Of a stretch of DNA of 64,000 nucleotides, positions 12,137 to 18,611 are shown in pieces. A program made the translations under genes and the position numbers. Below the pieces are notes generated by a model that did not search any database, was not told the origin of the DNA, and worked only from the letters and a program-made list of their open reading frames with translations. Numbering within the stretch: position 1 is the stretch's first letter; every line of letters starts with the position of its first letter. Origin of the DNA: Sphingobium wenxiniae (GTDB lineage Bacteria > Pseudomonadota > Alphaproteobacteria > Sphingomonadales > Sphingomonadaceae); the NCBI RefSeq assembly GCF_007830065.1, contig NZ_VLKK01000012.1, positions 1 to 64,000 of the forward strand. Reading direction: 5' to 3'.

Positions 12137-12168
12137 AAAAAAAAAAGGGCCGATCCGAAGACCAGCCC
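12137..12168 (-). terminator. intrinsic terminator of small-RNA candidate A
   Basis: On the minus strand GGGCTGGTC-TTCG-GATCGGCCC forms a 9-bp stem with two G-U pairs and a UUCG loop, followed by ten T. This is a textbook Rho-independent terminator. Confidence 0.88.
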
Positions 12169-12245
12169 TGGAAAAGTTTTAGGAGAGGATGCCTGAAAGG
12201 CCCGTTCCTGTTGGCGGATGTTCTCCTCTCCCGCAACTGCGAAGG
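12137..12245 (-). ncRNA. candidate small RNA, copy A of a paralogous pair
   Basis: Minus-strand element between ftsK and lolA, in a 546-bp gap without protein genes. It aligns without gaps to a second element at 18390-18490. The shared parts are a promoter-like GGTTGCA at 12274-12268, an internal palindrome CGCAGTTGCG, a perfect 33-bp block (12177-12209) containing the small hairpin GCCT-TTC-AGGC and the C-rich stretch CATCCTCTCCT, and a terminator. CTCTCCT is complementary to Shine-Dalgarno sequences, as in several alphaproteobacterial trans-acting small RNAs (family knowledge; the match to any named family is not shown). The predicted RNA is about 100 nt. The 5' end is a guess from the promoter-like motif. 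Confidence 0.6.
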
Positions 12246-12349
12246 AACGGAGAGCAATTGCAAAATTTGCAACCGCTCACGTAAAGGCCTGATTGCAAAC
12301 ATTAAAAATGGGAAGAAAAGCACCGGCAGGTAAATTCATATGCCTTTGG

Positions 12350-18389: not shown

Positions 18390-18418
18390 AAAAAAAAAGC
18401 CGCCCCGAAGGACGGCTT
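18390..18418 (-). terminator. intrinsic terminator of small-RNA candidate B
   Basis: On the minus strand AAGCCGTCC-TTCG-GGGCGGCTT (9-bp stem, UUCG loop, one G-U pair) runs into nine T. Stem bases differ from the copy A terminator while pairing is kept. Confidence 0.88.
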
Positions 18419-18490
18419 GTGAAGTTTTTAGGAGAGGATGCCTGAAAGGCCCGTTCCTTTTGCGGTGCAGCACATCCCTTCGCAATTGCG
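18390..18490 (-). ncRNA. candidate small RNA, copy B of a paralogous pair
   Basis: Minus-strand element in the 402-bp gap between pgmG and the FadL-type gene. It is the ungapped partner of 12137-12245: GGTTGCA at 18523-18517, then GCAAT, palindrome CTTCGCAATTGCGAAG, an identical 33-bp block (18426-18458) with GCCT-TTC-AGGC and CATCCTCTCCT, and its own terminator. The distances between the shared motifs equal those in copy A although the sequence between differs, which suggests conserved structure or promoter spacing. A 3'UTR fragment released from pgmG mRNA is an alternative origin. The rest of the gap (18210-18389, 18524-18611) shows nothing. Confidence 0.6.
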
Positions 18491-18611
18491 AAGAAAGCAG
18501 GTCTGATTGCGTTTCGTGCAACCGTAACGAACTGCTTTGCTTTCCGTAACGGAAAACCCGGCGGCAAATTTCCCTTTCCGGACGGATTTTTCGCGGCAAA
18601 CCCTGCCGTGA

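Follow-up and report, generated by a model that had tools for sequence, protein, structure and literature searches.

Introduction

Sphingomonads are bacteria known for the degradation of aromatic pollutants. A LysR-type regulator can be encoded beside a small RNA gene, as in the enterobacterial GcvA/GcvB system, whose RNA is unrelated to the alpha-r8 family. In Agrobacterium, a LysR-type gene likewise adjoins small RNA genes, as at the loci described here, and its product, VtlR, directly activates three RNAs; the AbcR RNAs are unrelated to those of this study, and the proposed VtlR box, GCAT-N3-TG-N3-T, differs from the TTGC-N7-GCAA dyad reported below (PMC7486931).

The alpha-r8 RNAs themselves are reported throughout the Alphaproteobacteria except Rickettsiales (PMC12559287). 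In Caulobacter crescentus they occur as four dispersed siblings, SisA-D, with a weak 5′ hairpin, a single-stranded core and a terminator, the same architecture as here; its authors detected no motif common to the regions ahead of sisA-D, in contrast to the siblings described here (PMC12559287). SisA is linked to Hfq and represses TonB receptors, transporters and metabolic genes (PMC12559287). Sinorhizobium meliloti MmgR, of the same Rfam family, is linked to polyhydroxybutyrate (PHB) and controlled by PhaR (AniA); it is a sole copy, in contrast to the multiple copies here, and the parts of the reports covered make no mention of a LysR-type cassette (PMC12542648, PMC12559287). In a sphingomonad, Sphingopyxis granuli TFA, the suhB-type RNA SuhB was found by Northern blot and dRNA-seq to be 61 nt long and to bind the thnR 5′ UTR in an Hfq-dependent manner, in a context of carbon catabolite repression, which is the kind of action that we propose here (PMC6563040). 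The covered part of that report mentions no copy number, LysR-type gene or shared cassette, and the sequences were not directly compared with ours. Three suhB genes have been predicted with Rfam in Novosphingobium sp. PP1Y (PMC4059872).

Here, we analyze two such genes, copies A and B, in a 64,000-nt stretch of DNA from Sphingobium wenxiniae (the window). We think it likely that they are two of five dispersed alpha-r8 genes, set in cassettes of one design, which a LysR-type regulator activates jointly and whose RNAs block Shine-Dalgarno sites.

Results

Copies A and B belong to a described small RNA family

Copy A lies on the minus strand of the ftsK-lolA gap and copy B on the minus strand of the pgmG-fadL gap, between genes whose proteins carry FtsK, LolA, PGM/PMM and Toluene_X/FadL domains. 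The original prediction, made from the window alone, described a gapless paralogy between the two gaps with a series of shared motifs, and this is real. On the minus strand, 69 of 106 columns are identical from -74 to +31 without a gap (+1 being the G of GCCTTTCAGGC), and a 33-base block that spans the RNA start is 100% identical. Both copies hold GGTTGCA, GCAAT, TTCGCA.TTGCG and a UUCG-loop terminator of their own, with T10 in A and T9 in B. Their Rfam E-values, 3.3e-7 and 3.3e-6, are far beyond chance.

By sequence, A and B are members of the known family RF00519 (suhB, MmgR or alpha-r8), both scoring above its gathering cut-off of 41 bits. As cmscan of the whole window against Rfam at gathering returned RF00519 only, an affinity to the CcsR and alpha-r14 groups, which had been suggested and which Rfam may not cover, found no support. 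Nor is the family undescribed in sphingomonads, as had been thought possible, being in print for S. granuli (PMC6563040) and Novosphingobium sp. PP1Y (PMC4059872).

We read GGTTGCA...GCAAT and TTCGCA.TTGCG as promoter DNA upstream of the predicted RNA. With the palindrome at -42 to -31 taken as promoter, it most likely lies outside the RNA, and the transcript becomes one of ~61-65 nt that would start, judging from promoter spacing, near 12201 and 18450, instead of one of ~100 nt from ~12240 and 18488. The features are as follows.

12137..12201, minus strand: alpha-r8 (SuhB/MmgR) small RNA copy A, ~65 nt; RF00519 match of 49.6 bits at 12208-12132; ends predicted from promoter spacing and T-run; layout 5′ hairpin GCCUUUCAGGC, then unpaired AUCCUCUCCUAAAACUUUU, then terminator
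12137..12169, minus strand: copy A intrinsic terminator (UUCG loop, T10), from sequence and fold; the stem covaries across 127 non-redundant transcripts
12182..12190, minus strand: copy A seed ATCCTCTCC (complement of GGAGAGGAT), unpaired in the fold
12208..12213, minus strand: copy A putative -10, CAACAG, positioned by column consensus over 141 copies
12231..12236, minus strand: copy A putative -35, TTGCGG, overlapping the right half of IR2, at 17-bp spacing to the -10
12232..12243, minus strand: copy A IR2, TTCGCAGTTGCG, -42 to -31
12257..12273, minus strand: copy A IR1 dyad, GTTGCAAATTTTGCAAT (TTGC-N7-GCAA), centre -64
18390..18450, minus strand: alpha-r8 (SuhB/MmgR) small RNA copy B, ~61 nt; RF00519 match of 45.7 bits at 18457-18383; predicted ends
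18390..18418, minus strand: copy B intrinsic terminator (UUCG loop, T9), from sequence and fold
18431..18439, minus strand: copy B seed ATCCTCTCC, unpaired in the fold
18457..18462, minus strand: copy B putative -10, CAAAAG
18480..18485, minus strand: copy B putative -35, TTGCGA
18481..18492, minus strand: copy B IR2, TTCGCAATTGCG
18506..18522, minus strand: copy B IR1 dyad, GTTGCACGAAACGCAAT

The genome carries a multi-copy set of siblings

A and B had been taken for a two-copy family. The genome's own assembly (4.1 Mb, 85 contigs) contains six RF00519 matches at E <= 0.001, five of them over the cut-off. All five share the core GCCTTTCAGGCATCCTCTCC. The sixth (locus L006, 37.1 bits) has the core GTCTCCTCCCTGAAC, as do copies from other families, and inspection of this locus revealed no upstream elements; we call it ancestral-type, by likeness to those copies only. 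Other genomes of the genus hold between 3 and 11 RF00519 matches each (24 genomes), and 16 genomes of other families hold 0-2. The nearest FtsK relatives among the 80 listed come from named Sphingobium species and reach 93% identity. Of 80 ftsK loci, some of them cut by contig ends, 25 hold a core where copy A lies and 30 where copy B lies, and B is present in all 25 that have A.

The predicted RNA exposes a pyrimidine-rich seed

Measured from the core G through the last T of the T-run, which was required in addition for this set, 159 distinct transcripts have a modal length of 61 nt, the length of S. granuli SuhB (PMC6563040). Removing near-duplicates left 127 non-redundant transcripts. In these, the 9-bp consensus stem of the Rho-independent terminator has changed on both sides with pairing kept, and a T-run follows; the view that these are paralogous small RNA genes with their own terminators is thus borne out. 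The 5′ hairpin is a weak 4-bp stem (GCCU/AGGC) that is present in the fold and in 127/127 transcripts; because it is invariant, partly since the copies were found by this core, covariation does not speak for it.

The segment AUCCUCUCCUAAAACUUU is unpaired in the folds. It is CU-rich and could pair with Shine-Dalgarno sequences, in keeping with the anti-ribosome-binding-site role first envisaged. Where SisA-D of Caulobacter carry the single-stranded 10-mer UUUCCUCCCU, the corresponding position of the model, likewise unpaired, reads AUCCUCUCCU here; L006 has UCUCCUCCCU.

A fixed promoter geometry accompanies the RNA copies

We surveyed the DNA upstream of 141 distinct copies of the A/B type, allowing up to three core mismatches and leaving out copies less than 95 nt from the locus start; 140 of the 141 have zero mismatches in the 20-nt core. 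A TGC-N7-GCA dyad (IR1) is found in 139 copies, 111 of which show the stricter TTGC-N7-GCAA, and TTCGCANTTGC (IR2) is found with at most one mismatch in 132 and exactly in 119. Nine copies are thus without IR2 (more than one mismatch) and two without the dyad. Where both elements occur (130/141), TTCGCANTTGC begins precisely 42 nt ahead of the core in 130/130 copies, and the distance between the starts of dyad and IR2 is 27 or 28 nt in 129. The column consensus has TTGCGN at -35 to -30 and, after 17 bp, CANANN at -12 to -7, with the dyad centred at -64. LysR-type activators characteristically have a T-N11-A site near -65 and a second site near -35. A dyad centred at -64 and an IR2 at -42 to -31, in register with each other, therefore match the layout of a LysR-type activated promoter.

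The combined pattern has three sites in the 4.1-Mb assembly, each at such an RNA copy, and none in the reversed control. Taken singly, the elements occur more widely. RTTGC-N7-GCAAY is common (14 sites in the genome, 6 in the control), and TTCGCANTTGC has 14 genome matches, two of which are both strands of one palindrome, against none in the control. Each of the five RNAs has one of these sites, and about eight lie elsewhere, one before hfq and several in open frames. Two TTCGCANTTGC sites lie in gaps before frames that we identify by reading their translations only, one outer-membrane-protein-like (L136:1500, G000:C4:211332) and one malate-dehydrogenase-like (L138:1500, C5:118586). In the window, the promoter spacer of copy A (12231-12224, minus strand) holds GGAGAGGA, the complement of its own seed; this is probably chance, as copy B lacks it.

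The hfq element, at most one mismatch away from TTCGCANTTGC, occurs upstream of hfq in 19/19 genus loci and 0/11 others, 128-140 nt before the conserved protein stretch, with TTCGCAATTGCG exact in 17/19; by eye, it could sit between a -35 and a -10. The strict dyad is present at 1/19 of the genus hfq loci. The hfq frame itself (G000:C1:87510-87947; L134, L173) has two Hfq stretches, and two Hfq matches in a single frame recur in 19/19 genus genomes searched, the second being ~60-67% identical. Among 12 genomes of other families, 11 have one match and one (G025) has two, on separate contigs.

A LysR-type regulator gene is linked to the RNA

One sibling, on contig C13 (L001), is divergent from a LysR-type gene (L001:1317-442, minus strand), with the promoter module in between. 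The regulator has 292 aa with HTH_1 and LysR_substrate domains. Its best NCBIfam model is GcvA, at 201 bits under a cut-off of 288, so that we call it GcvA-like only. Its first 60 residues are identical in nine translated loci. At E <= 1e-60, the regulator is found in 25/25 genus genomes and 0/16 genomes of other families, and 25/25 genus loci show a divergent RNA core 191-215 nt from the start of the regulator's conserved domain, accompanied by the two elements in register.

The idea that the regulator is confined to Sphingobium was rejected, as it occurs in 163 of the 199 family genomes, with one match each. From these 163 we chose 60 further loci by hand, 40 mostly of top identity and 20 of lower identity; other genera supplied 58 of the 60, and distant Sphingobium members the remaining two. 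The RNA core is divergent from the regulator in 32 of the 60: 31/40 in the mostly top-identity set, 1/20 at lower identity, and neither of the two distant congeners. Rfam at gathering places the RNA in 12, 14 and 1 loci of three sets of 20, one locus having two copies. The 32 RNA-linked loci retain the dyad in register in 30, IR2 (at most two mismatches) in 30 and both in 28. At one locus (L375, G097), two tandem RF00519 copies stand beside the LysR-type gene, the second also with similar promoter elements upstream.

Loci without the RNA bear on which protein owns the sites. Of the 28 further loci that lack an adjacent RNA, 19 are among the 20 low-identity picks. In these 28 loci, the 160 nt that precede the gene hold strict TTGC-N7-GCAA three times, and the remaining 75 kb do not hold it at all (Fisher p = 1.3e-4); the loose TGC-N7-GCA is not clearly enriched upstream in the same loci (5 seen, 2.05 expected, p = 0.057), and 25 of the 28 are also without the strict dyad. 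Another regulator could therefore own the sites. Among the 199 family genomes, an RF00519 match accompanies the regulator in 163/163, and 16/36 genomes without the regulator have one; the co-occurrence (Fisher p = 5e-18) comes from lists compared by eye and is uncorrected for shared ancestry. Feedback of the RNA on the regulator mRNA was considered and rejected: the full GGAGAGGATGC is on the regulator-gene strand in 3/9 aligned loci (L011, L012, L013), so such a site is not conserved.

The upstream elements might instead form an unusual core promoter, an extended -35 with an UP-like dyad that answers to growth rate without any dedicated regulator. IR2 overlaps the putative -35, TTCGCANTTGC also precedes hfq in every one of the 19 genus loci, and SuhB is reported to follow growth rate (PMC6563040). 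Against this, the -64 dyad is LysR-type in form, has a fixed phase and is kept at dispersed copies, and it is in register at all 25 genus copies and at 30 of the 32 further regulator-linked ones. We therefore regard a promoter of this kind as unlikely.

Candidate targets include catabolic, uptake and storage genes

GGAGAGGA, complementary to the seed, occurs 2-9 nt before ATG at 50 places, with 4 in the reversed control. The octamer AGGAAGGG, a control of our own choosing and a poorer Shine-Dalgarno sequence than GGAGAGGA, precedes ATG at 29 sites (reversed control 6). An open frame of 80 aa or longer follows 36 of the 50 GGAGAGGA sites and 13 of the 29 control sites, and all of these frames were run against Pfam. 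By our own post hoc sorting, 17/36 are catabolic, uptake-receptor or storage genes, a few of them doubtful, versus 0/13 in the control. The 36 include two TonB receptor plugs, PhaC, Tannase, FAD_binding_3, Rieske/LigXa_C and two P450s, as well as AMP-binding, thiolase, MaoC, a LysR and an IclR regulator; H_PPase, OmpA and DUF6118 are among the unrelated domains, and at least three of the 36 starts look like internal ATGs (L296, L311, L338:2601). As GGAGAGGA is itself a good Shine-Dalgarno sequence, its enrichment before ATG is no proof of targeting, and since the control is a weaker ribosome site, the target enrichment is only a lead. The reported targets, thnR for SuhB (PMC6563040) and the SisA set (PMC12559287), point the same way.

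FadL, beside copy B, did not stand out as a special target, its start region ranking 14th of 52 crude window ORFs by duplex energy. A gene with a PhaC_N domain (L322:1511) starts at GGGAGAGGACAATG, the complement of the seed, and might thus connect the RNAs with the PHB phenotypes of MmgR and SuhB. In another region (L342:1582; G000:C1:183581), GGAGAGGATGC is perfectly complementary over 11 nt to the seed region of the RNA and lies just past the stop of a frame that we read as basic-amino-acid-decarboxylase-like and before a GC-rich hairpin. This element is a possible 3′ UTR decoy for the siblings and the one candidate noted here for a sponge like the CrfA known in Caulobacter.

PHB also suggests a different owner of the upstream sites, namely the PHB-sensing repressor PhaR (AniA), with the RNAs released upon granule formation. 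S. meliloti PhaR binds the mmgR promoter and represses mmgR (PMC12542648), PHB granules have a positive effect on suhB transcription in S. granuli (PMC6563040), and at the PhaC gene here the start region contains GGAGAGGA. The PhaR box of S. meliloti, however, is YGCR-N-YGCR (PMC12542648), versus CGCA-N2-TGCG in IR2 and TGC-N7-GCA in IR1. These differing spacings disfavour PhaR, and the regulator gene that is linked to the sites is of LysR type. On balance, ownership by PhaR seems improbable to us.

Degenerate repeats, or remnants that give no transcript, are hardly a credible reading of the stretches: the copies are dispersed repeats, but 140/141 retain an intact core, the terminator changes are compensatory and the S. 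granuli homologue is transcribed (PMC6563040).

Discussion

Our preferred reading remains that of a jointly activated set of alpha-r8 genes. Each cassette would consist of a LysR-type activator site (TTGC-N7-GCAA at -64 and TTCGCANTTGC over the -35), a weak -10, and an RNA of ~61-65 nt that carries a 5′ hairpin, exposes the AUCCUCUCC seed and ends in a terminator. As regulator, the likeliest candidate is the GcvA-like LysR-type protein encoded divergently from one sibling; it would switch on the whole set jointly. The UCCUCUCC seed of the RNAs, presumably with Hfq, would then cover Shine-Dalgarno sequences of the GGAGAGGA type, and translation of catabolic, uptake and storage genes would fall.

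A broader version, which we offer tentatively and hold to be rather less likely than not to be right in full, is that the family-wide GcvA-like regulator serves as a dedicated alpha-r8 master switch whose cassette was copied in Sphingobium, and that it sets the siblings and hfq together and, through them, silences genes for catabolism, TonB uptake and polyhydroxybutyrate.

Both the RNA family and its occurrence in sphingomonads have been published; what appears to be new is the upstream promoter part. In the literature covered, mainly titles and the openings of abstracts, we found no report of a linked regulator or a shared sibling promoter for sphingomonad alpha-r8 RNAs. The shared promoter module and the linked regulator make co-regulation of the whole RNA set directly testable. 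With one regulator over all copies, a cell could dampen many nutrient genes in a single step.
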